A DNA stretch of 10,723 nucleotides, taken from the NCBI GenBank assembly GCA_025351985.1, contig JANXUW010000477.1, forward strand, positions 1 through 10,723. The letters are read 5' to 3'. The DNA comes from Pseudolysobacter sp. GTDB lineage: Bacteria; Pseudomonadota; Gammaproteobacteria; Xanthomonadales; Rhodanobacteraceae. Below, in pieces: positions 1-10,600 of this stretch. The notes beneath the pieces were generated by a model. The model ran no database searches. It had not been told where the DNA came from and saw only the letters and a list, made by a program, of their open reading frames with translations. Position 1 is the first letter of the stretch, and each line of letters opens with the position of its first letter. The translations under genes were made by a program, and so were the position numbers.

Positions 1-168
1 CAATTTTTGAAATATCAGTGCATCGTTCCGTCGTACGAAATTCAAAAACAGTTCGACCTAGTTTCCGATAAGTTTGAAAAATTAGCTGTTCAAATGACGA
101 TGGCATCTTCAAGAAGTGAGCGTCTTTTTTCTTCGCTTCAACTACGGGCATTTGCGGCGGCGCTTTAA
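1..168 (+). CDS. hsdS: Type I restriction-modification specificity subunit HsdS, C-terminal end (5' truncated by window)
   Basis: Frame 1 is open from the first base to TAA at 166-168 and gives 55 residues. They begin QFLKYQCIVPSYEIQKQFD and end SERLFSSLQLRAFAAAL. This is the typical HsdS tail: an 'I.P...EQ..F' segment opening the last conserved helix, a long helix, and the closing 'SLQ.RAF' motif before the stop. HsdS carries the target recognition domains that direct the HsdM methylase and HsdR nuclease to one DNA sequence. The target domains are outside the window, so specificity cannot be judged. The stretch is AT-richer than the genes downstream, which is common for recombining hsdS genes. 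The HsdR gene on the same strand at 3736 supports the call. Confidence 0.88.
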   Translation, partial: QFLKYQCIVPSYEIQKQFDLVSDKFEKLAVQMTMASSRSERLFSSLQLRAFAAAL

Positions 169-317: not shown

Positions 318-572
318 ATGGACGATCTTTCCGTTACCAGCAAAGGCCAGGTGACCATTCCACGGGATGTTCGGCAGAAACTCGGTATTCGCGCCGGTAG
401 CAAGGTGCGGTTTCGCATCGTCGGCACACATGCGGAACTCGCTGTGGTCAGCTCGCCCACGCCGGTCCGCACCAGTGGCGCCGGCATGCTGCGCCACAAA
501 ACCACGGCGGTGCCGGTCGATTTCGATGTCGCCACGCTGCTGACGCCAAAGTCTCGGCGTCAGGCGGGGTGA
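318..572 (+). CDS. AbrB/MazE-type (SpoVT-AbrB) antitoxin
   Basis: This 84-residue protein has a swapped-hairpin AbrB DNA-binding domain at residues ~4-47. The hallmark is SVTSKGQVTIPRDVRQKLGI, followed by G-S-KVRFRI. Antitoxins of this class bind their own promoter through this domain and block a PIN toxin with the C-terminal tail, here residues ~48-84. The start at 318 is chosen because ACGGAG lies 7 bases upstream and the domain begins right after it. The toxin gene starts 4 bases after the stop, so the two are one transcript. The pair is flanked by hsdS and an hsdR fragment, making it an insert in a restriction locus. Length and motif are normal for the family. The toxin-antitoxin reading comes from family knowledge and gene order. 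Confidence 0.85.
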   Translation: MDDLSVTSKGQVTIPRDVRQKLGIRAGSKVRFRIVGTHAELAVVSSPTPVRTSGAGMLRHKTTAVPVDFDVATLLTPKSRRQAG

Positions 573-576
573 TGTC

Positions 577-1029
577 ATGGAGCGCACGATCGGTCTGGAT
601 ACCAATGTGCTCGCGCGTTATTTCGTATCGCCCAAACCCACCGATGCGGCGGAATGCCGCCTAGCCGCGCTGGCGATAGCACTGATCGATTCGGGCCAGC
701 CGCTGGCCGTCTGCAAAACGGTGCTGCTGGAACTGGAATGGGTATTGCGCGGTTATTACGGTTATCCGGCCAAGGCCATCCGCGCCGTATTCGATTACCT
801 GCTGAGCCAGCCGCATATCAACGTAGAAGATCGCCCGCAGGTGGAGAGTGCTCTGCGCAACAGCGCGGCAGGCTTGGACTTTGCCGATGCGCTGCATCAC
901 GCGAGTTATGCGACCTGCGCCCGCGTCGCCAGCTTTGATGATCGCGGTTTCGCCCGCCGCAGCGACAAGCTCAAACTGCAACCGCCAGTAAAAGTGCCGG
1001 CTGCGCGCAAGGCAGCAGCGAAAAAATGA
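577..1029 (+). CDS. PIN-domain ribonuclease toxin (VapC-like)
   Basis: This 150-residue PIN-domain protein would be an Mg2+-dependent RNase that cuts RNA when freed from its antitoxin. The acidic catalytic residues are all present: D8 in GLDTNVLARY, E52 in the LLELEWVL helix, D101/D104 in LDFADALH, and D121/D122 in ASFDDRGF. The toxin therefore appears intact. The tail (~130-150) is rich in Lys and Ala, ending KVPAARKAAAKK. The start at 577 lies 4 bases after the antitoxin stop, with GGGGTGAT just upstream as the likely ribosome binding site. The stop TGA (1027-1029) overlaps the ATG of an hsdR 5' fragment as ATGA. This implies the pair once sat directly in front of an hsdR gene. The cellular target is unknown; VapC-type enzymes often cut tRNA or rRNA. 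Confidence 0.85.
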   Translation: MERTIGLDTNVLARYFVSPKPTDAAECRLAALAIALIDSGQPLAVCKTVLLELEWVLRGYYGYPAKAIRAVFDYLLSQPHINVEDRPQVESALRNSAAGLDFADALHHASYATCARVASFDDRGFARRSDKLKLQPPVKVPAARKAAAKK

Positions 1030-1121
1030 GCAACTTCCCGTTTCTCCACGCCGAATTCCAACGGCTCTTCGAGCTGGCCAAGGGCGCGGGGCAGCCGGCC
1101 TATTCCGATCAACAGGCATGA
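1026..1121 (+). pseudogene. hsdR 5'-end remnant, copy 1
   Basis: This 31-codon ORF (MSNFPFLHAEFQRLFELAKG...) aligns without gaps to the first 28 codons of the intact hsdR at 3736. By my count 71 of 84 bases match the intact gene and 75 of 84 match copy 2. Homology fades after TATTCCGA (~1109), and the frame ends at TGA 1119-1121. It begins with ATG AGC, like copy 2, where intact hsdR has TTG ACC. Its ATG overlaps the PIN toxin stop (ATGA), so it could be translated by coupling. It is too short to encode a working domain. I read it as the stump of an hsdR allele displaced when the fic unit arrived. It is the most diverged copy, hence perhaps the oldest or from the most distant donor. Confidence 0.85.
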
Positions 1122-1151
1122 GGCTATTGATCGAGTGCCGAAGGCTGGCGT

Positions 1152-1223
1152 ACGTGTTGTTGGGATTCGTTTAGATTTTGACGCCAACGCGAATGGGTGA
1201 TCATGGACCAACGACAAACACGT
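1152..1223. repeat. Nested inverted repeat in the gap before fic
   Basis: ACGTGTT (1152-1158) pairs with AACACGT (1217-1223). GTTGG (1159-1163) pairs with CCAAC (1208-1212), leaving a 4-base bulge. ATTCG (1165-1169) pairs with CGAAT (1190-1194) further in. A second CCAAC at 1184-1188 offers an alternative pairing. The element lies between hsdR remnant 1 and the fic operator region. It could be a binding site, a folded RNA, or a scar of insertion. No function is known. Confidence 0.3.
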
Positions 1224-1244
1224 TGTTGTAGATGAAATGCCGAT

Positions 1245-1309
1245 TTTTGATGACAACATTGCTTGTCGTGCATCGGTGAGCGACAAATGCATTTGTCATC
1301 AAAATGATG
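1245..1309. promoter_or_regulatory. Probable operator array upstream of fic
   Basis: The 12-base arms TTTTGATGACAA (1245-1256) and TTGTCATCAAAA (1293-1304) are perfect inverted repeats. Within them lie two palindromes of form GACAA-N6-TTGTC: 1252-1267, with an asymmetric centre, and 1282-1297, GACAAATGCATTTGTC, which is perfect over 16 bases. Their centres are 30 bp apart, close to three helical turns. A further dyad, CATCA-AAA-TGATG, spans 1297-1309. A weaker relative (GACAA-N5-TTGTT) lies at 1213-1227. The second palindrome ends at a possible -35 box, so binding there should repress. The winged-helix tail of the Fic protein is the obvious candidate binder, by inference. Confidence 0.6.
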
Positions 1310-1327
1310 TTATAAATTAACTACAAT
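1293..1327 (+). promoter_or_regulatory. Likely fic promoter region, exact boxes uncertain
   Basis: The region just after the operator is AT-rich and holds TTGTCA (1293-1298), TATAAA (1311-1316) and TACAAT (1322-1327). No pair has the ideal 17-base spacing: TTGTCA to TATAAA is 12 and TTGTCA to TACAAT is 23. A start from TACAAT would begin near 1334 and favour translation from ATG 1357. The boxes are tentative; only the general location is supported. Confidence 0.35.
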
Positions 1328-1356
1328 GATCGTTGAGCTTAAAAACCAGGCCGAAG

Positions 1357-2481
1357 ATGAGTTTCGATACCAGCCAAGCTGTCAGCTATCACCTAGGCAA
1401 ATTCCCGCCGGCTGAGCTGGATTATGCCCGCCTGATGCCGGGCCTGCTCGGTGCCACCGCCGCATTGGCACGCTACGATCAAATGCTGCGTGGCCTGCAC
1501 AACAGCGAACTTTTCCTCGCACCGCTGCGTGGTCAGGAAGCGGTGGTTTCCTCGCGCATGGAAGGAACCATCAGCACCCTGGACGAGATTCTCCAATTGG
1601 AGGCCGAATTCGGCGACGACGATGCGGGGGCTGCACTGGAGTTTCGATCGGACGCGATCGAAACGGTCTTGTATCGACGTGCGCTGAGCACCGCCCAGCT
1701 TCGGTTGGAGCAGGGCCAGCCACTGACCGAATCGCTGTTGAAAAGCATCCACCAGCAGCTGCTCTCGTTCGGGCGTGGTGCCAGCAAGTCGCCGGGCGCC
1801 TACAAGCGTGAGCAGAATTACATCGGTGAACGCGGCAGTCGCAAAGTGAGTTTTGTACCCATCGCGCCGGAGCATCTGCCCGGAGGCATGGAAGCGTTGT
1901 TCCGGCTGATCGGCGATGAGTCCATGCCGGTGCTGCTGCGTACCGCGCTGGCGCATGCCGAGTTCGAATCGCTGCATCCGTTCGAGGATGGCAATGGTCG
2001 TGTCGGCCGCATGTTGATCACACTGATGCTTTGGCAGGGCAAGGCCATCGCTGCGCCGCACTTTTACATCAGCCGCTATTTCGAAGACCAGAAGGACGAG
2101 TATCTGGATCGCCTGCGCCAGGTGTCGGCGGACGACGATTGGGACGGCTGGTGTAAGTTCTTCCTCGCAGCGGTGGAGCAGCAGGCGATCGGCAATCTGG
2201 AAGCGGCGCGGACGATTGGCGACTTCTATGCGGAAATGAAACCGCGTTTCGCCGAGTTGCTAGCTTCCAAATATGCGGTCACGGCGCTGGATTATCTGTT
2301 CACGAACCCTGTTTTCAGTAACAGCCGTTTTACCCGCAGCGCGGGCATTCCCGCACAGACGGCGGCGCGCTTCACTCGCTTGCTGTTGCAGGAAGGACTG
2401 TTGCAGGTCGTGCGCGAAGCGGCGGGGCGGCGCTCGGCAATCTACCGTTTCGAATCGCTGATGCAGCGTGTGCGAGTTTGA
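1357..2481 (+). CDS. Fic-family AMP-transferase-type protein, class II, with C-terminal winged helix
   Basis: This 374-residue protein has the three-part layout of the common Fic/DUF4172 family. An N-terminal helical region carries the inhibitory motif S65-x3-E69-G70 (in VVSSRMEGT). The Fic core carries H207-PFEDGNGR-VGR. A C-terminal winged helix begins near residue 297 (KYAVTALDYLF...). Fic enzymes usually transfer AMP from ATP to a hydroxyl side chain of a target protein. His207 is the catalytic base, and Glu69 normally blocks ATP binding, so this is an intact, self-inhibited class II form. ATG 1357 is preferred because AGG lies 6 bases upstream; TTG 1333 in frame would add 8 residues. A palindrome array precedes the gene and an hsdR stump follows 37 bases after it. 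Fic genes are known companions of type I restriction loci. The target is unknown. Confidence 0.88.
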   Translation: MSFDTSQAVSYHLGKFPPAELDYARLMPGLLGATAALARYDQMLRGLHNSELFLAPLRGQEAVVSSRMEGTISTLDEILQLEAEFGDDDAGAALEFRSDAIETVLYRRALSTAQLRLEQGQPLTESLLKSIHQQLLSFGRGASKSPGAYKREQNYIGERGSRKVSFVPIAPEHLPGGMEALFRLIGDESMPVLLRTALAHAEFESLHPFEDGNGRVGRMLITLMLWQGKAIAAPHFYISRYFEDQKDEYLDRLRQVSADDDWDGWCKFFLAAVEQQAIGNLEAARTIGDFYAEMKPRFAELLASKYAVTALDYLFTNPVFSNSRFTRSAGIPAQTAARFTRLLLQEGLLQVVREAAGRRSAIYRFESLMQRVRV

Positions 2482-2518
2482 GTGCGACCAAGATGGATGC
2501 GGATTCCAAGGAAATGTG

Positions 2519-2641
2519 ATGAGCAACTTCCAGTTTCTCCACGCCGAATTCAAACCGCTCTTCGAGCCGGCCAAGGGCGCGGAGCAACTGGTCTATTCCG
2601 ACCCGCGCGCGTGCGCTTATCGGTGCGGAAGGCGGCGATGA
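2519..2641 (+). pseudogene. hsdR 5'-end remnant, copy 2, overlapping the DUF3800 start
   Basis: This 40-codon ORF (MSNFQFLHAEFKPLFEPAKG...) matches the first 32 codons of intact hsdR at 92 of 96 bases. Two of the four differences are in the start region (ATG AGC versus TTG ACC); the others are CAC/CAT and TTC/TAC. Homology stops after GCGCGCGTGC (2614), though an Arg three codons later still aligns. It keeps its own ribosome binding site, AAGGAA at 2508-2513, 5 bases before the ATG. The frame stays open to TGA 2639-2641, which overlaps the ATG of the DUF3800 gene (ATGA). The remnant may therefore be translated and may feed ribosomes to DUF3800. A longer DUF3800 start at GTG 2482 would translate this remnant out of frame and is rejected. 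Confidence 0.88.
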
Positions 2642-3543
2642 AGAAGAAATCGTCGTCCGCATCGAAGCAGCTAGCATCGGCTGCCGTAGCTTCGCATCGT
2701 CCTGATACGACAGAGCAATACGGGCTGTTTGATGCGAACCCACCAGTGACCGCAGTAAGTGCTGCGCGCGAGGTGCCCGAAAACAGGTTCAGTCGCTACG
2801 TAGTGTATGTGGATGAAAGCGGCGATCACGGCCTGGAGAGTGTCGACCCAGCCTATCCGGTGTTTGTGCTCGCGTTCTGCGTGTTCCACAAAACCTATTA
2901 TGCGCAGAAAGTGGTTCCATCAATCGAGGCATTCAAGTTCAAGCACTTCGGTCATGACTTGGTGGTGCTGCACGAAACCGACATCCGCAAAGAAAAGGGC
3001 GAGTTCCGATTCAATAGTCGCGAGCAAAAGCAGATATTCATTGACGAGTTGACCGGCATCATTGATGCCAGCAAATTCATCTTGATCGGTTGCGTGATCG
3101 ACAAGAACCGTCTGCGCGAACGCGGCGAAAATCCATATCACTTGGCGCTCGGTTTTTGCCTTGAAACTTTGTACGAACTGACGCAGGAAAAAGGGCAGCA
3201 CGAGTTGACCACGCACGTGGTGGTGGAGTGCCGAGGCAAGCGCGAAGATCGTGAGCTGGAACTAGAGTTCAGGCGGGTCTGCGCAGGAGAAAACAAGCTA
3301 AGCAAGCTGCTTCCCTTCGACATCGTGTTTGCAGACAAGAAGACCAATTCGTCCGGGCTGCAGCTGGCCGATCTGGTCGCGCGTCCCATCGGTTTGTCGG
3401 TCGTAAGGCCGGGCCAGGAGAATCGCGCTTTCGAAGTGCTGAAGAGCAAATTCTTCTGCAGCGGCGGACGCAAACATGTGGGGGTAGGCTTTGAGGGATG
3501 GGGGCTGAAGATTCATCCGCCAGAAAGCGAAAGGCCCCGGTGA
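2638..3543 (+). CDS. DUF3800 family protein, possible metal-dependent nuclease
   Basis: This 301-residue protein of the uncharacterised DUF3800 family has two conserved family signatures: YVDESGDHG (D59, E60, D63) near the start of the domain, and LQLADLVARP (Q242, D245) near the end. Paired acidic residues at both ends of a mixed fold would suit two-metal nuclease chemistry of RNase H type; that is inference, not established. Residues 1-50 look disordered (MKKKSSSASK..., low complexity, many Ala and Ser) and contain QYGLFD at 27-32. The start at 2638 is chosen because GGAAGG (2627-2632) lies 5 bases upstream, and earlier in-frame codons lie inside the hsdR remnant. It sits in a restriction locus between two hsdR 5' copies. 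DUF3800 genes are often found in defence and prophage regions. No signal peptide or membrane segment is seen. Confidence 0.8.
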   Translation: MKKKSSSASKQLASAAVASHRPDTTEQYGLFDANPPVTAVSAAREVPENRFSRYVVYVDESGDHGLESVDPAYPVFVLAFCVFHKTYYAQKVVPSIEAFKFKHFGHDLVVLHETDIRKEKGEFRFNSREQKQIFIDELTGIIDASKFILIGCVIDKNRLRERGENPYHLALGFCLETLYELTQEKGQHELTTHVVVECRGKREDRELELEFRRVCAGENKLSKLLPFDIVFADKKTNSSGLQLADLVARPIGLSVVRPGQENRAFEVLKSKFFCSGGRKHVGVGFEGWGLKIHPPESERPR

Positions 3544-3556
3544 TCGCACCGAGGCC
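3533..3556 (+). terminator. GC-rich hairpin across the DUF3800 stop codon
   Basis: GGCCCCGGTG (3533-3542) and CACCGAGGCC (3547-3556) form a 10-bp stem with one C-A mismatch and a 4-base loop. The loop and arm overlap the TGA at 3541-3543. There is no T-run after it, so it is a weak or factor-dependent terminator at best. It may instead protect or attenuate the transcript before hsdR. No good promoter is visible between 3557 and 3735. Confidence 0.35.
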
Positions 3557-3697
3557 ATAACGCCGACCGGGAACCCCCAATCCACTTAACGCTAAGTTTA
3601 ATTCCGCGAGCACGATATCCGCAAGAAAATATTACTTGAGTGCGCTAAGAGTAGATTCAGGCAGGTCGAAAGTGATCAGGCGGCTGTGAATAAACCC

Positions 3698-3739
3698 ATG
3701 AACAAAAAAACTTTTCGTTCAGTACGAGGTAGTTCTTGA
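3698..3739 (+). CDS. Possible 13-codon leader peptide coupled to hsdR
   Basis: ATG at 3698 opens MNKKTFRSVRGSS and stops at TGA 3737-3739, which overlaps the TTG start of hsdR (TTGA). An in-frame GTG at 3686 would give 17 residues, with AGG 5 bases upstream. A small hairpin (GAAC 3700-3703 with GTTC 3717-3720, AAAA with TTTT inside) lies in the coding part. It ends 5 bases before the hsdR ribosome binding site GAGGT. The ORF has no strong ribosome binding site for its ATG, so it may be chance. If real, it would couple or meter hsdR translation. Confidence 0.3.
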   Translation: MNKKTFRSVRGSS

Positions 3740-3831
3740 CCAACTTCCAGTTTCTCCATGCCGAATTCAAACCGCTCTACGAGCCGGCCAAGGGCGCGGA
3801 GCAACTGGTCTATTCCGACCCGCGCGCGTGC
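3736..3831 (+). repeat. Third copy of the hsdR 5' direct repeat (within intact hsdR)
   Basis: Codons 1-32 of the working hsdR form the reference copy for the remnants at 1026 and 2519. The repeat starts lie 1493 and 1217 bases apart. Copies 2 and 3 are close enough for homologous exchange, which would remove the DUF3800 gene and restore an ATG-started hsdR behind fic. The left edge of every copy is the start codon, and the right edges fall at codons 28-32. Confidence 0.88.
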
Positions 3832-6800
3832 TGCATGCGCACGCGCCACGCGCTGGAACAGGCGGTGCACTGGTTGTACGAGAACGATCGCGATCTGCGC
3901 ATGCCTTACGATCGCAGCCTGAATCTGCTGTTGAGCCAGACCGAATTCGAGCGACTTTTGCCGCCGCATATCCTGCAGAAAACGCGGCTGATCCAGAAGC
4001 TCGGCAATCAGGCGGTACATGCGAATCAGCGCATTGGTCACGGCGACGCGATGCGTCTGGTGCGCGAATTGTTCCATGTGTTGTTCTGGCTCGCGCGCAC
4101 CTACACGCGTGCGAGTGATCCGAAATCCATCGAGGCAACATTCGAAGAAAAACACGTGCCGCGATTGGTGCGCGCGGACGAAGCGATTGCACTGACGCGC
4201 GACGAACTGAAGAAACAGGAAGACAAGTTTCAACAGACGATCGACGCGCAACATGCACAGCTCGAAAATCGCGAAGCGAGCATTGTCGAGGCAGCCGTGA
4301 CACTGGCCGAACGCGAAGCATCGCTCGCGCAGGTCAACGCCGAACTCGCGGCATTGCGCGCAGAGCTGGCATTGGCCAAGTCAGCGAATATTGCGCTGCC
4401 GGATGAGCATGATTACGACGAAGCCGATACGCGTCGTTTCCTGATCGATGTTTTGTTGCGTGAGGCCGGATGGGAGCTGGATGCCAATGCCACCGCCGAG
4501 TTTGCCGTGCTCGGCATGCCGAACAACAAGGGTCAAGGTTTTGCCGATTACGTTTTGTGGGGCGCGGATGGTGCGCCGCTGGCGGTGGTCGAGGCCAAGC
4601 GCAGTTTGAAAGATCCGGATATCGGCCGACAACAAGCAAAGTTGTACGCCGATTGCCTCGAACAAATGAAAGGCCAGCGCCCGATCATTTTCTACAGCAA
4701 TGGTAACAAGACGTGGATGTGGGATGACCGCCGTGCAGCGCCGCGAGAGGTGCAGGGTTTCTACAATCGCGACGAACTGCAACTCGCGATCCAGCGTCGT
4801 AGCCTGCAGACCGATTTACGCAGCCTCAAGATCAATTCGGTAATCGTCGAACGCACGTATCAGCACCGCGCGATCCGTGCGATGGCGGAAGCGTTTGCAG
4901 AAGGCCGCCGCGCCGGTTTGTTGACGATGGCAACCGGCACCGGCAAAACGCGCATGGCGATCGCGTTGGTCGAATTGTTGATGCGCGCCAATTGGGTGAA
5001 GCGGGTTTTGTTCCTGGCGGATCGCGTCGCTTTGGTGAAGCAGGCAACGGGTGCATTCGGCGAGTTTCTGCCTGATTCCAGTCCGGTGAATCTGGTGCTC
5101 AATCGCGAAGGGCAAGGCCGCGTATATCTGTCCACCTATCCGACCATGATGGGTTTGATCGAACAGATGGAAGGCGATCGTCGCAAGTATGGTGTCGGTC
5201 ATTTCGATCTGATCATCATCGACGAAGCGCATCGCAGCGTGTATCAGAAATACGGCGCGATCTTCCGTTATTTCGACAGTTATCTGGTCGGCCTGACCGC
5301 GACGCCGCGCGATGAAGTGGATCGCGATACGTATCATTTGTTCGGTTTGGAAACCGGCGTGCCGACCGATACCTACGGGCTGGATGAAGCGGTGGCCGAT
5401 GGTTTTCTGGTGCCACCGAAAGCGAGTTCCGTGCCGATCAAGTTTGTGCGCGAAGGCATCAAGTACGACGAGCTGACTGAAGCTGAAAAAGAACATTGGG
5501 AGTCACTGGATTGGGGTGATCGCGACGGTGATGGCGAGAGTGATCCGGCGCCAGATGCGGTGCATGCCTCCGAGATCAACAAGCAGCTTTTCAACGAAAG
5601 CACCGTTGATCTGATGCTCAAACATGTGATGGAAAATGGCTTGAAGGTGGATGGTGGCGACACGATCGGCAAAACCATCATCTTTGCCGTCAATCAGCGC
5701 CACGCAGTATTCATCGCCAAGCGTTTTGATCACCACTACCCGCACCACAACGGCGCATTTGCGCGCGTGGTCACGCATGCAGTCAGCTACGCGCAGAGCC
5801 TGATCGATGACTTCAGCAGCAAGAGCAATAAGCTGCCGCAGATTGCGATTTCGGTGGATATGCTGGATACGGGAATCGATGTGCCGGAGATTCTGAATCT
5901 GGTGTTCTTCAAGGCGGTGCGTTCGAAGGTAAAATTTTTGCAGATGATCGGACGTGGCACGCGCCTTCGCGCGAATCTGTTTGGTCCCGGGGAGCATAAA
6001 ACCCAGTTCTATATTTTTGATTTCTGCGCGAACTTCGAATTCTTCAACGAGAATCCCGCCGGTGTGGTGACGCCACTTCCGGAGCCGTTGCAGAAGCGTT
6101 TGTTCAAGCGACGGTTGGAGCTTCTGGAGTTGCTGAAAACGGGCGCAGCGAAGAAAAATCCGAAGGTTGGTGATGCGTTTGGTGGGTACGACGCCGTCGA
6201 TACATTGTGCGGCGGCATCGTCGATCATCTGCACGGCGAAGTGGCGGCGATGAACATCAACAATTTCATCGTGCGACCGCAGAACGAACACGTCATGCGT
6301 TTTGCGAAACGCGAGCAATGGAATCAGCTCGATGATTCCGCGACGACCGAACTGCGCGAACATGTTGCGGGCCTGCCGACCGAACAACCGGCGGAGCACA
6401 TTACCGCAAAGTTATTCGATCTGATTTGTTTGAACCTGCAGTTGGCTTTGATCCGCGCGACGCGAGAATTCGTCACCTATCGCGACAAGATTATCGAACT
6501 TGCCGAAGATCTCGAAAAGAAGGACACGATTCCGGCAGTCAGGGCGCAGCTGGAATTGATCCAGGATGTGCAGACTGAAGATTTCTGGAAAGACATCACG
6601 CTGGTCATGATCGAATCCGTGCGACGCAAAATGCGTGAGCTGATCAAGTTCATCGAACGTCGCTCGCTCGAGCCGGTGTACAGCGTGCTGCAGGATGAGA
6701 TCGGCGCAGCGACCGAAGTGCAGCTCAACGACTTCAGCACCGGCATCAATCTCGCGCAGTACAAGCGAAAGGTCGAAGCGTATATCCGCGCCAACGAAAA

Positions 6801-7221
6801 CCATATCGCCATCGCCAAACTCAGGCACAACAAGCCGCTCACGTCGACCGATTTGAGCGAGCTGGAGCGATTTGTTTATCAATCCGATACGGTCGAAAGC
6901 CGTATGCGTTTTGAACAATGCTATGGCACGGAACAACCGCTGACGTTATTTATTCGCTCGCTGGTCGGGCTGGATCGCAACGCGGCGAAAGAAGCCTTTG
7001 GTCAGTTTCTCGACGAGAATCGCTACACCAGTCAGCAGATTCGTTTTATCGAAATGATCATCGACAAACTCACGCAGCGCGGCGTGATGGAAATAGGGCA
7101 GCTATACGAACCGCCATTCACTGCGGTGCATTACGAAGGTTTGGATGGAACCTTTCGCGACGGTGATGCCGCTGCGATCGTCGCGATTCTCGAAGACATC
7201 AATCAGCGCGCGGCGGCTTAG
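3736..7221 (+). CDS. hsdR: Type I restriction enzyme HsdR, ATP-dependent endonuclease/translocase subunit
   Basis: This 1161-residue motor and nuclease subunit joins HsdM/HsdS and cuts unmethylated DNA after translocating it. A DUF4145-like helical domain covers ~1-125 and a charged coiled coil ~150-220. The PD-(D/E)xK nuclease follows, with D271 (FADYVLW) and E286-A-K288 (VVEAKRS). The SF2 translocase has Walker A ATGTGKT (K404), D496-EAH, T521-ATPR and QMIGRGTR (736-743). The C-terminal third fits the EcoEI-type R tail. All catalytic residues are present and no frameshift is seen. The TTG start has GAGGT 5 bases upstream and an in-frame TAG at 3730 behind it, and copy 2 aligns from the same point. 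The usual hsdS-hsdR neighbourhood is split by 3.5 kb of accessory genes. A TTG start may keep HsdR output low. Confidence 0.95.
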   Translation: MTNFQFLHAEFKPLYEPAKGAEQLVYSDPRACCMRTRHALEQAVHWLYENDRDLRMPYDRSLNLLLSQTEFERLLPPHILQKTRLIQKLGNQAVHANQRIGHGDAMRLVRELFHVLFWLARTYTRASDPKSIEATFEEKHVPRLVRADEAIALTRDELKKQEDKFQQTIDAQHAQLENREASIVEAAVTLAEREASLAQVNAELAALRAELALAKSANIALPDEHDYDEADTRRFLIDVLLREAGWELDANATAEFAVLGMPNNKGQGFADYVLWGADGAPLAVVEAKRSLKDPDIGRQQAKLYADCLEQMKGQRPIIFYSNGNKTWMWDDRRAAPREVQGFYNRDELQLAIQRRSLQTDLRSLKINSVIVERTYQHRAIRAMAEAFAEGRRAGLLTMATGTGKTRMAIALVELLMRANWVKRVLFLADRVALVKQATGAFGEFLPDSSPVNLVLNREGQGRVYLSTYPTMMGLIEQMEGDRRKYGVGHFDLIIIDEAHRSVYQKYGAIFRYFDSYLVGLTATPRDEVDRDTYHLFGLETGVPTDTYGLDEAVADGFLVPPKASSVPIKFVREGIKYDELTEAEKEHWESLDWGDRDGDGESDPAPDAVHASEINKQLFNESTVDLMLKHVMENGLKVDGGDTIGKTIIFAVNQRHAVFIAKRFDHHYPHHNGAFARVVTHAVSYAQSLIDDFSSKSNKLPQIAISVDMLDTGIDVPEILNLVFFKAVRSKVKFLQMIGRGTRLRANLFGPGEHKTQFYIFDFCANFEFFNENPAGVVTPLPEPLQKRLFKRRLELLELLKTGAAKKNPKVGDAFGGYDAVDTLCGGIVDHLHGEVAAMNINNFIVRPQNEHVMRFAKREQWNQLDDSATTELREHVAGLPTEQPAEHITAKLFDLICLNLQLALIRATREFVTYRDKIIELAEDLEKKDTIPAVRAQLELIQDVQTEDFWKDITLVMIESVRRKMRELIKFIERRSLEPVYSVLQDEIGAATEVQLNDFSTGINLAQYKRKVEAYIRANENHIAIAKLRHNKPLTSTDLSELERFVYQSDTVESRMRFEQCYGTEQPLTLFIRSLVGLDRNAAKEAFGQFLDENRYTSQQIRFIEMIIDKLTQRGVMEIGQLYEPPFTAVHYEGLDGTFRDGDAAAIVAILEDINQRAAA

Positions 7222-7239: not shown

Positions 7240-10032
7240 TTATTTTATTGCCAGCATTATTGCCAAACGCTCCGCATCAAGCCGATCCTTCGCCTGCGCC
7301 ACCAACGCCACGCGCAGCACTGGCAACGCGCTGCGCAACAACTCACGCGCCGTCGCATCGTCGCCGGTCTCATGTGCGTAATACGCGAGTTTTGCGGCGG
7401 CTTGGGCGTAGAGTGGATGATCTTTCGCGACGACAAGCTGCAGTTCGGTCAGCGCTTGTTGTTCGGCGCTGCGTGCGGTTGTCCAATCGTGTTTCGCTGC
7501 AGCGATATGCGCGAGCGCTTCGGCGTAACGCGCGCGGCGACGGTATCCGCCACGTCCGACTGGTAGTGTCAACGCTTGCAGGTTTTTTGCGGCGATATCG
7601 ACGTGGCCGCTCGCGAGTTGCCATTCGGCGTCGAGCACGTCGCTGTCGAAACGTTCGGCATTGTCGGCGGGCAGGGTGCGACGCGTGGCGAGCGCGCTAT
7701 CGAGCAATGGGCGCGCCGCGGCGAGGTTGCCGAGTTCGAACTGGCAGCGTGCGAGATTGTGTTGCGCGCGCGCGAGTGACGGATGTGGCGCGCTGAATTT
7801 TTTCTCGCGGATCGCCAGCGATTGCTCGAACAGCGGCAGCGCGCCAGCGTAGTCGCCGCGATCCTCGAACAGCGTGCCGAGATTATTCACGGTGCTTGCG
7901 TTGTCCATCGAGTCGGCCGTTTCGAGTTTGGTAAACAGCACCATCGCCGCGCGATAATGCGACTCGGCCTCGGCGTATTCGCCCATATCCTGCAGTACAC
8001 CAGCGAGATCGTTCTGTGTGTGCGCCACTTGAATACTTTCGCTACCTTGCACCTGGATGCGCAGCGCGAGCGCTCGCTCGAAATCGCGCTTGGCGGTGGC
8101 CAGCTCGCCGAGTGCCTGTTCGGATTGTGCGAGACCGTTGAGCGAATTCAATGTGCGTGGGTGCTGGTCGCCGAATATCGCGCGTTTGCTGTCGAGGGCG
8201 ATCTGGTATTCGCTGCGCGCGGTAAGGTTGTCGCCGGTGCGGAAAGCCAGGAATCCGAGATTGTGATGTACCGATGCGACTTCGTCGCGATAGCGCGGCC
8301 CGGCTGCGGCGAAGATCGCCAGCGCGCGGTGGAAATCGCGTCCGGCGCCGACAAAGTCGGCTTGATATTGCTCGAGCAAACCGAGTGAACTTTCGGTGTG
8401 ACCGATCTCTGGATCATCGATGGGCAGCAGCAGCTGGCGCAGCGTGATGGCTTCGCGGCACGCGCTAAGCGCTTGTGTGTAATCCGAGCTGTCGGTATAG
8501 GCGCGGCAGAGCTCGTGCAGTGCATTGGCGAGGCGCAGTTGATCCGCGCCGGGCGCGCGCAGCAGCGCGACTGCCGGCGTGAGCAATTCGATACTGCGCT
8601 GCGGCTGGCCGATGCTGGTATAAATTTCGCCGAGCGCCTGGAGCAGGCGCGCGCGCACCTGCGGCTGATCGGAAAGCGTTGTGCCCAGCAGGGTACGACC
8701 GTGATCGAGCAGATCGCGCGCGCTGATATCGCGACCGCGCGTGTTTTCGGGGTCGGCATCCTTGAACAGGCTTAGCAGAAATTCGGTCACTTGCTCGGCG
8801 CTGTGCGCTTCCACTTCTGCCTGATGTTCGGCATGTAATGCGCGCGCACGTTCCACTGCGAGCCATGCCGATGCACCGATTACGCAGACCAGCGCGAGCA
8901 AGCCCGCTGCCACCGCGGCGCGATGCCGGCTGATAAATTTGCGGATGCGATAACCGAGCCGATCGGGCCCGGCTTCGAGCGGCAGGCCGGCGAAATAATT
9001 GTCGATCTCGCCGGCCAGTGCGGCGGCGGAGTTGTAGCGACGTTCGGGTTCGGGCGCCAGCGCGCGAAGCACGACATGATCGAGATCACCATTGATGCGC
9101 GCCGCGTCCTCGCGTATCCACGACGCCTCGGCCTGCAGTGCGATGCGCGCGGGTCGCGACTCACGCCAGCTGCCGGTCTTGCCGTCGGATTTGTATGACT
9201 TGCCGCATAGCAGTTCGTACAGGATCAAACCGAGGCCGAACACGTCGCTCGCCGTGGTCACGGGCTCGCCGGCGATCTGCTCCGGGCTGGCGTAGTCGAC
9301 GGTGAATGCGCGCAGCTCGGTGGCGCGCTCGCCGCTCGCATCGGTGGCGGTAAGTTTGGCGATGCCGAAGTCGAGCAGCATCGGCGTGTCGTCGCCACGC
9401 ACGATCACGTTGGCGGGTTTCAGATCGCGATGCACGATGAGGTTTTGATGCGCGTAATGCACCGCGCGACAGAGTTGCTGGAACAGACGCAGGCGCGTTG
9501 TCAGCGTCGGCGTTTTTTCTGCCCACCAGGCACCGAGCGGCAAGCCTTCGATGTATTCCATCACGAGGAAAGGCTGGCCCTCGACGGTCGTGCCGCCATC
9601 GAGCAGGCGCGCGATATTCGGATGCACCAGCCCGGCCAGAACCTGACGCTCGCGGCGCAGGCGTTCGAGCGCATCGGCGGTCGGAAATCCGCGAATCAGC
9701 TTGATTGCGACCTGGCTCTGGTATTCGCGATCCGCGCGTTCGGCCAGATACACGCTGCCCATACCGCCGCGGCCGATTTCGCTGAGGATGCGATAGTGGC
9801 CGACGCGCCGACCGAGCCACGGCGTGGCTGCATCGAAGTGCGATGCAGCGGTGGCGGCGACACTCGCGGCGAGCGGATCGCTGGCTTCGTCGTCGCACGC
9901 GAGCAAGGCTTCGAGTTCGTCGCGCAAGGCGAGATCCTCGCCACACGCCGCTGCGGCAAAACTGGCGCGTTGTTCGGGCGGCAGTGCGATCGCGGCCTCG
10001 AACAATTCGCGCAGGCGGACAAGGCGGCTCAT
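7240..10032 (-). CDS. Membrane Ser/Thr protein kinase with TPR sensor-like C-terminal region
   Basis: This 930-residue protein starts with a short helical head seen in many ECF-linked kinases (residues 1-50, LFEAAIALPPEQRASF). A Hanks-type kinase domain follows at ~80-345: GRGGMGSVY (87-95), K111 in VAIKLI, H201-RDLKPAN, D221-FG, and SPE at 249-251. One membrane helix lies at ~372-394 (AAVAAGLLALVCVIGASAWL). The remainder, ~400-930, is made of helical repeats of the TPR/kinesin-light-chain type and should lie outside the cytoplasm, for example NLGTLFEDRGDYAGALPLFE. All catalytic residues are intact. It follows an ECF sigma gene by 10 bases on the same strand, so the sigma factor is the likely substrate. 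No clear ribosome binding site precedes its ATG, so translation may be coupled. Its stop lies 18 bases from the hsdR stop, convergent, with no terminator seen between them. Confidence 0.9.
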   Translation of the reverse strand: MSRLVRLRELFEAAIALPPEQRASFAAAACGEDLALRDELEALLACDDEASDPLAASVAATAASHFDAATPWLGRRVGHYRILSEIGRGGMGSVYLAERADREYQSQVAIKLIRGFPTADALERLRRERQVLAGLVHPNIARLLDGGTTVEGQPFLVMEYIEGLPLGAWWAEKTPTLTTRLRLFQQLCRAVHYAHQNLIVHRDLKPANVIVRGDDTPMLLDFGIAKLTATDASGERATELRAFTVDYASPEQIAGEPVTTASDVFGLGLILYELLCGKSYKSDGKTGSWRESRPARIALQAEASWIREDAARINGDLDHVVLRALAPEPERRYNSAAALAGEIDNYFAGLPLEAGPDRLGYRIRKFISRHRAAVAAGLLALVCVIGASAWLAVERARALHAEHQAEVEAHSAEQVTEFLLSLFKDADPENTRGRDISARDLLDHGRTLLGTTLSDQPQVRARLLQALGEIYTSIGQPQRSIELLTPAVALLRAPGADQLRLANALHELCRAYTDSSDYTQALSACREAITLRQLLLPIDDPEIGHTESSLGLLEQYQADFVGAGRDFHRALAIFAAAGPRYRDEVASVHHNLGFLAFRTGDNLTARSEYQIALDSKRAIFGDQHPRTLNSLNGLAQSEQALGELATAKRDFERALALRIQVQGSESIQVAHTQNDLAGVLQDMGEYAEAESHYRAAMVLFTKLETADSMDNASTVNNLGTLFEDRGDYAGALPLFEQSLAIREKKFSAPHPSLARAQHNLARCQFELGNLAAARPLLDSALATRRTLPADNAERFDSDVLDAEWQLASGHVDIAAKNLQALTLPVGRGGYRRRARYAEALAHIAAAKHDWTTARSAEQQALTELQLVVAKDHPLYAQAAAKLAYYAHETGDDATARELLRSALPVLRVALVAQAKDRLDAERLAIMLAIK

Positions 10033-10042
10033 GCGCGAATCG

Positions 10043-10600
10043 CTACAGCGTGAGTTCGCGTTTCAGCCACGCCCGGCCGAAACGCAGGCTGCGATCCACG
10101 GTCGGCACGGAAACCTTGAGCACGTGTGCCACTTCATCGCGATTCAAGCCGCCGAAATAGGTCAGCTCGATCACCTTGCCGGTACGCTGATCTTCGCGCT
10201 CGAGGCGCTGCAGTGCCTGATCGAGCACGAGCAGATCGGCGCTCTCCTCAATACGCGCGCTGCTCGATTCGGTCCACGTCACATGCAGCGCACCACCACC
10301 ACGTTTTTCCGCCTGCTGCGCACGCGCGTGATCGACCAGCACATTGCGCATGTGCAACGCGGCCAGCGCGAAAAAATGCGCACGATCGTGCCAGTCGATA
10401 TCGCTGTCGCACAGGCGCAGAAAAGTCTCATGCACGAGCGCGGTGGGGTTGAGGGTTTGCGCCGGGTTCGAACCGAGCCGCCGCCACGCCATCGTGCGCA
10501 GCTCGGCGTAGACCAATTCGGTGAGTTTGGGCAGCACGGCAGACTGGCCGGCGCGCCAGGCTTGCAGCAATTCGGTGATCGGCGTTTGCGGCGTCAGCAT
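10043..10600 (-). CDS. ECF RNA polymerase sigma factor (kinase-linked type)
   Basis: This 185-residue ECF sigma factor resembles the 'ECF, Sig-70_X6' style family. Region 2 spans ~10-95 and includes TALVHETFLRL (53-63) and HFFALAALHMRNVLVDHAR. Region 4 spans ~122-183 with the helix-turn-helix GLNRDEVAHVLKVSVPTVDR (151-170). No anti-sigma gene is adjacent; a Ser/Thr kinase gene follows in the same operon. Typical ECF factors carry acidic residues before the LVQ of region 2.2 to hold the polymerase clamp. Here those positions are Thr53-Ala54, as in kinase-activated ECF factors such as Vibrio EcfP. No ribosome binding site is seen before the ATG, and ATG 10600 is the first start for the conserved region. 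The regulated genes cannot be told from this window. Confidence 0.9.
   Translation of the reverse strand: MLTPQTPITELLQAWRAGQSAVLPKLTELVYAELRTMAWRRLGSNPAQTLNPTALVHETFLRLCDSDIDWHDRAHFFALAALHMRNVLVDHARAQQAEKRGGGALHVTWTESSSARIEESADLLVLDQALQRLEREDQRTGKVIELTYFGGLNRDEVAHVLKVSVPTVDRSLRFGRAWLKRELTL

Follow-up and report, generated by a model that had tools for sequence, protein, structure and literature searches.

Truncated hsdR 5' ends between hsdS and hsdR as probable scars of repeated insertion in a type I restriction-modification locus

The rlo and mlo genes of Campylobacter are accessory genes inside type I restriction-modification operons, as are those of the locus described here, and we know of no gene-head remnants in the rlo/mlo loci. 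The present locus bears on the open question of how islands of defence genes form where genes of mobile elements are absent. It lies on a 10,723-nucleotide (nt) contig of Pseudolysobacter sp. (GenBank assembly GCA_025351985.1, JANXUW010000477.1; our contig C101), which was analysed entire and is called the window throughout; the genome is in 766 contigs and 86% complete. The window carries one intact hsdR and, upstream of it, two truncated copies (stumps) of the hsdR 5' end, or head, each next to different accessory genes, here called cargo.

The available sections of one report place DarTG2 and another gene pair between hsdS and hsdR in the RptR / RRDM defence island, and term the hsdS-hsdR site a potential recombination hotspot (PMC12255303). 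Insertion with long target duplication is described for restriction-modification genes in the accessible portions of two further sources (PMC1643837, PMC3031569), and homology-facilitated illegitimate recombination is recorded, in the part at hand of another, as a route observed in the laboratory (PMC3240628). We propose that the hsdR heads in the window are probably the scars of repeated insertions at the hsdR 5' end.

Copies of the hsdR head in the window and related loci

On the + strand the window reads hsdS 3' end, AbrB/MazE-like gene, PIN gene, hsdR head, Fic gene, hsdR head, DUF3800 gene and intact hsdR. Its type I restriction-modification identity comes from the HSDR_N, ResIII and EcoEI_R_C domains found by Pfam in hsdR; the M and S assignment rests on relatives, because the window holds only the end of hsdS and hsdM lies beyond the contig. 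A preliminary description of this DNA had placed the head three times, at 1026, 2519 and 3736, and self-comparison bears this out. The intact gene (3736..7221, + strand, 1161 amino acids (aa); ResIII 2.4e-36, EcoEI_R_C 6.4e-24, HSDR_N 1.1e-7, DUF4145 5.5e-9) is matched by stump 2 (2519..2614, + strand), apparently the previous hsdR start cut off after 96 nt (32 codons), at 95.8% including the start codon (E 1.9e-39, self-BLAST) and at 96.8% over hsdR nt 2-96. Stump 1 (1026..1108, + strand), apparently the first 83 nt (27.7 codons) of an earlier hsdR, matches at 85.5% including the start codon and at 86.6% over nt 2-83; its own short open reading frame (ORF) continues to a stop at 1119-1121. 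To the left of the start codon, similarity ends for both. The left edges at the start codon and the end of stump 2 at codon 32 thus stand as first described, whereas the right edge of stump 1 moves from 1121, the ORF stop, to 1108, 13 nt earlier. Also as described, both stumps have ATG AGC and Phe15 where the intact gene has TTG ACC and Tyr15, and stump 1 is nearer stump 2 (75 of 83 nt) than intact hsdR. Beyond the three heads, a whole-genome search returned one chance match only (E 0.9).

Matches to the hsdR head occur in 17 of 398 genomes of the order, 13 of 233 of the family and 15 of 369 of the class, with further matches in 17 of 395 genomes of the family of G237 and 5 of 43 of the family of G044; these sets overlap, sampling was one genome per species, and several genomes are bins. 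A contig collection yielded 14 loci with an hsdR head. Forty-seven loci were taken for comparison, one genome contributing twice. For 44 of them (leaving out L050, which has no hsdR, the second copy L063 and the doubtful match L087), five 300-nt hsdR segments, where the contig reached, were compared with the 7.5 kilobases (kb) upstream. The first segment, hsdR nt 1-300, recurs upstream in six loci as seven copies, all of which start at hsdR nt 1 or 2. They end at nt 96 and 83 (the two in the window), 75 (L028), 101 (L039, 73% identity), 116 (L044), 128 (L084) and 22 (L061); L061 and L084 stop at contig edges. The four other segments gave a single 32-nt match (E 7e-4), deemed chance, and for the 28 loci compared with the first 300 nt of hsdM there was no match at all. 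At the protein level, searching the 47 loci returned the same set minus L061 and plus L050, whose stump lies on a contig without hsdR nearby. A tblastn match at L022 -7175 (E 0.001) was discarded as chance, and weak matches in G124, G180, G387, G468, G927, G982 and G989 were not counted as stumps.

Heads of this kind also occur in a second HsdR family. The N-terminus of an unrelated HsdR of ~800 aa (HSDR_N, ResIII, EcoEI_R_C), searched against 200 genomes, matched in 16. At L160 (from G044), hsdS overlaps a stump of 107 nt (78.5%) by ATGA, and HTH_66 and PIN_10 genes and hsdR follow. G010 carries a lone head of ~28 codons behind a gene without a Pfam match and ahead of an Abi_2 gene, and no other match to the second-family N-terminus genome-wide. 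On plasmids, where relatives of this family are annotated EcoAI/FtnUII family, 25 records match; one, from Pseudomonas savastanoi, does so only over codons 1-31, its head lying after XRE-DUF4411 and before a RelE/ParE-type pair; the annotation of the 10 kb examined includes no hsdR. Two phage records match the second family at 43% identity across the whole query; nine stretches of viral contigs fit a pattern, none encoding a relative. E. coli has no DNA match to either HsdR family, and there is thus no within-species comparison there.

The cargo-free ground state, seen in L036, L040, L047, L107, L088 and L089, is the hsdS stop, 3-6 nt and the hsdR start; in L031 and L035 a leader of 69-70 nt separates the two. 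Against this stand three single-scar loci in which the stump lies directly behind hsdS with no accessory gene before it: L028 (hsdS, stump, DUF3800, complete hsdR), L044 (hsdS, stump, AbiEii, complete hsdR) and L160. Because these stumps occupy the native place of hsdR, we read the stump as the resident hsdR start, and the inserted unit accordingly as the cargo behind the stump together with the next hsdR 5' end. The preliminary description had the unit the other way round, as a gene with an hsdR head behind it, and we reverse that order; the loci with fewer units that it predicted do exist, in these same three. L084 is a second two-step stack (a 552-aa cargo gene, a 128-nt stump, Fic and an hsdR start at the contig end) and, with cargo that differs between genomes, it supports the stepwise and recurrent build-up first suggested; the relatives do not all share the three-unit arrangement of the window. 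A single cargo gene, Fic-like by eye, occupies the hsdS-hsdR interval of L065. Direct repeats of 75-128 nt flank cargo in the window, L028, L044, L084 and L160.

Empty and filled sites can be compared most clearly in Pseudomonas. The empty site is seen in L023, L025 and L029, where one gene ends immediately before the hsdR ATG. At the filled site L034 the same gene end leads into ATGAGCA, which repeats hsdR nt 1-7 and is followed by a 671-aa gene with an AlbA_2 domain and then by a complete hsdR; the comparison is between species, and only 7 nt are repeated. L086 offers a mirror case with cargo between hsdM and hsdS, in which 44 nt of the hsdM 3' end are repeated (93%) at the hsdS start. The scars, their polarity, their place behind hsdS and their recurrence with different cargo in two HsdR families are direct observations.

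Insertion at the hsdR start

In the mechanism we propose, each event would join cargo to the resident hsdR at a point no more than ~130 nt from its start, with a complete hsdR and its own start behind the cargo. Most of the cargo belongs to defence-like families, among them toxins and abortive-infection proteins. The net outcome would be inserted DNA with the hsdR 5' end directly repeated on either side, the upstream copy being dead. A later insertion would strike the new hsdR start, and units would stack between hsdS and hsdR with the newest beside hsdR. Scar age would grow with distance from hsdR (96%, 86% and perhaps a ruined one), and we infer that the stacking order is chronological.

The history of the window may be read this way: hsdS, then AbrB-PIN, then the Fic insertion, then DUF3800, each arriving at the then-current hsdR start. 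The hsdS 3' end (1..168, + strand) ends ..LFSSLQLRAFAAAL*, a C-terminal motif common to the hsdS of relatives. The oldest cargo in this reading is the pair at 318..1029, formed by an AbrB/MazE-like antitoxin gene (318-572, + strand; Pfam MazE_antitoxin 2.4e-9) and a PIN toxin gene (577-1029, + strand; Pfam PIN 2.3e-7). Inserted unit 1 (1109..2518, + strand) would comprise a leader of ~250 nt and the Fic gene (ORF 1333/1357-2481; Pfam Fic 1.6e-18, Fic_N 2.8e-17; PADLOC SoFic 1.1e-98). Inserted unit 2 (2615..3735, + strand), a homologue of which precedes hsdR in L028, would consist of the DUF3800 gene (start probably 2638, stop 3541-3543; Pfam DUF3800 4.9e-18), a 3' hairpin and a leader of ~150 nt before hsdR. 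The neighbours AbrB-PIN, Fic and DUF3800 named in the preliminary description are thereby confirmed. The Pfam scan covered seven window ORFs, all located before the hsdR end, and returned no match for the 55-residue hsdS fragment.

A possible oldest and heavily degraded head (head 0; 169..~207, + strand) adjoins hsdS. In an anchored alignment against the three window heads its score was reached by 0, 0 and 1 of 300 shuffles, and in a second anchored run by 3 of 300; an unanchored test with the same three heads gave p 0.04-0.25. Head 0 has the top score among sites without an accepted stump, 28 sites, itself included, having been tested with the hsdR starts of L060, L062 and L065 placed 3-6 nt late. 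Judged from these alignments, the stretch at 169-207 is suggestive, at most, of a still older hsdR head.

In a tree of 39 heads, each of the seven stumps falls within the clade of its own hsdR subfamily, with the L039 stump on a long branch and of unsure placement. This is not the pattern of an unrelated small protein family, although trees of ~100 nt resolve little and most stumps are too short to place. The L044 stump is closer to the hsdR of L047 (0.897) than to its own (0.862), the two hsdR genes standing at 0.836 to each other, and it groups with L047 and the L050 stump (92/71 support); identity and placement together favour import at this locus. The L028 stump is at 0.907 both to its own hsdR and to that of L038. 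On whether the repeat copies stem from one target copy or two, L044 points to two alleles, the other stumps being too short.

So little DNA separates hsdS from hsdR that an insertion could leave both genes intact only by hitting a few nt or by duplicating a gene end, at least as judged from survivors. The duplication could arise one-sidedly, through an illegitimate joint on the left and homologous exchange inside hsdR on the right, or as a true long target duplication, a process reportedly to be attributed to Nobusato et al. 2000. Six scars of 75-128 nt against one of 22 make loss of long repeats alone an insufficient account of scar length; the skew would fit a lower limit on the length that homologous recombination can use, or a duplication length intrinsic to the process.

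Several observations weigh against the proposed mechanism. By eye, ~28 of the hsdS-hsdR intervals in the 47 loci hold cargo and 10 are free of it, the remaining 9 allowing no judgement. Six of the ~28 (the window, L028, L034, L039, L044 and L084) carry a scar, whatever its length, and the other 22 cargo-bearing intervals of the first HsdR family have no recognisable scar, which makes insertion with a scar one route among others or means that most scars have been lost. Under simple length-dependent loss of repeats, scars of 20-70 nt should be as numerous as those of 70-130 nt; the 44 loci show one (22 nt) against six, a small sample. In the second family, L162-L164 have ORFs between hsdS and hsdR and no repeat. 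Acinetobacter plasmids have genes at this place in four of six loci, with no hsdR stump by self-comparison, and a 31-32 nt spacer at the two empty junctions. The evidence for head 0 is weak, and the new hsdR start may have been imported with the cargo or copied on the spot. A mosaic signal of cargo-linked hsdR alleles was looked for in the Acinetobacter plasmids and none was seen.

As a more tentative generalization, which we hold to be possible rather than likely, the hsdR 5' end might be a general integrase-free landing site that stacks defence genes, each landing copying ~100 base pairs of hsdR. Dead heads would then form a dated record of the additions and their order, and head repeats may let cargo leave by RecA. 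A gene-head scar for each acquisition would show when in the series a unit arrived and where it was inserted, and would serve as a signature searchable in any genome.

Competing explanations

The strongest competitor, although we consider it improbable, is the model of the preliminary description, here taken as cargo with an hsdR head behind it, or a circle of cargo and head, entering any hsdR head by RecA-dependent exchange, with repeat-flanked units moving and stacking. The 75-128 nt of the scars is about the length that homologous recombination needs, and G010 has its lone head behind another gene; lone heads are, however, equally explicable as the remains of arrays that lost hsdR. The compared stumps share no head-cargo junction. 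DUF3800 lies beside a stump in both the window and L028, yet the stump edges differ (96 and 75 nt), and the stumps of L028, L044 and L160 have no cargo in front. Nor do the heads show a general excess of synonymous identity. Across 20 hsdR genes, identity at 4-fold sites is 0.58-0.61 in codons 2-32, 0.77 in codons 33-48 and 0.47-0.71 in the other bins. Since only codons 33-48 stand out and codons 2-32 do not, we reject a general homogenization of heads; the high head identity first observed is mostly amino-acid conservation. With heads not homogenized and scar edges differing beside DUF3800, the exchange through conserved hsd sequence that was first suggested is not supported.

We give little credence to the idea that the hsdR start was simply duplicated in tandem on the spot and that genes drifted in afterwards. 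It is favoured by the short database proteins P0040 and P0105, in which hsdR heads are fused in frame to the hsdS C-terminus; on their sequences these are apparent junction duplications without cargo, and we count them in favour of the proposed insertions as well. In the genomic cases observed, however, cargo lies directly behind the stump, the L044 stump is nearer another genome's hsdR than its own, and with stump 1 of the window as outgroup hsdR is the changed copy at all four positions where it differs from stump 2.

The other short database proteins, apart from P0040 and P0105, serve as a lead only. Searches gave 20 matches in one case and the best 120 of 185 in another, and 131 distinct proteins were inspected, of which 71 extend at least 4 residues past the hsdR match and 60 do not. 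Many of the 71 are frameshifts by eye, with tails like CRIRTT, and the ends IGRAHV and RKSVV among them are presumably sequencing adapters; many short proteins of 45, 47 or 57 residues look like nonsense mutants. Scars may explain some short database proteins named 'type I restriction enzyme R subunit', but many of those inspected result from frameshifts or nonsense mutations or lie at the end of a contig.

A site-specific recombinase acting in trans on an attachment site at hsdR codons ~28-32 is slightly less credible still. Several edges fall at codons 25-33, as do, by eye, those of a number of short database proteins, but the left joint lies anywhere between 7 and 128 nt into hsdR, a spread that argues against a fixed attachment or crossover site, and similar edge distances in two HsdR families with unrelated N-terminal sequence imply that there is no common site. 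An integrase gene was likewise not seen in the window: in agreement with the preliminary description, inspection of its ORFs, by eye only, found no recombinase gene, and neither the Pfam-scanned window genes nor ten scanned cargo proteins include a transposase or integrase, the remaining ORFs having been judged by eye. Least probable of all is that the stumps function as short ORFs, encoding leader peptides or serving as translational couplers, as their start codon close to the preceding stop and, in those inspected, a frame open to or near the edge might suggest, because aa identity is no better than nt identity (stump 1, 64.5% against 85.5%; L084, 75% against 80.5%), which gives no sign of purifying selection, and 22 of the ~28 cargo-bearing intervals have no stump.

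Associated elements and comparison with described systems

The DUF3800 gene ends in a conserved element of 66-70 nt comprising its last codons and a hairpin (window 3520-3588, + strand), which recurs in L028 (10976-11053) and L118-L136. Of 299 genomes of the order, 25 have a match, which in five covers only ~30-36 nt, and 35 plasmid records match as well. Across 21 copies, compensatory changes are seen at 4 of the 16 predicted pairs, the fold has z -3.1, and Rfam 15 gave no match at E<=1, though it holds the DUF3800-I and DUF3800-IX RNAs; the element is possibly a further DUF3800-linked RNA. In L121, L129 and L130 the element lies, at ~1500, close to where a type I hsdR of another kind (M[NT]ETEADTRANRIDP..) begins, and in L121 behind an hsdS end.

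A gene beginning like MRGELIAVWPESW.. lies directly behind hsdS in L030 (9158-9994), L027, L038, L046, L062 and L111; it mostly encodes 276-299 aa, with shorter ORFs in L046 and L111, and the L030 protein has no Pfam match. Whole hsdMSR loci can themselves be flanked by direct repeats, of 60-269 nt (74-88%) in Pseudomonas L023, L025 and L029 and of 74 nt (91%) in L041. On the minus strand of the window, 7240-10600 holds a 930-aa protein whose N-terminal part is, by eye, serine/threonine kinase-like, beside a 185-aa ORF that resembles a sigma factor, also by eye; both are unrelated to the hsd genes.

No title concerned with scars of the hsdR head came up in the literature searched, which did not extend to subscription journals. 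Insertion with long target duplication, as far as the sections available describe it, resembles the present case in having an insert flanked by long, variable direct target repeats and a tie to restriction-modification loci (PMC1643837, PMC3031569). It differs in that there the restriction-modification genes insert into the genome, whereas here other genes enter the restriction-modification operon, with repeated hits at the 5' end of one gene and repeats that are mostly 75-128 nt long. The order head, cargo, hsdR would likewise result if one end were joined by homologous exchange and the other illegitimately, as in the route that the accessible text of PMC3240628 reports from the laboratory; for the hsdR heads it is a candidate route only. 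The DarTG2 island shares with our locus defence genes between hsdS and hsdR, although the available part of its description makes no mention of hsdR remnants, stacking or a route of insertion (PMC12255303). The hsdS-hsdR hotspot was thus already suspected, and what the present locus and its relatives add is the repeated use of one site, scars of ~100 nt and their recurrence in two HsdR families.

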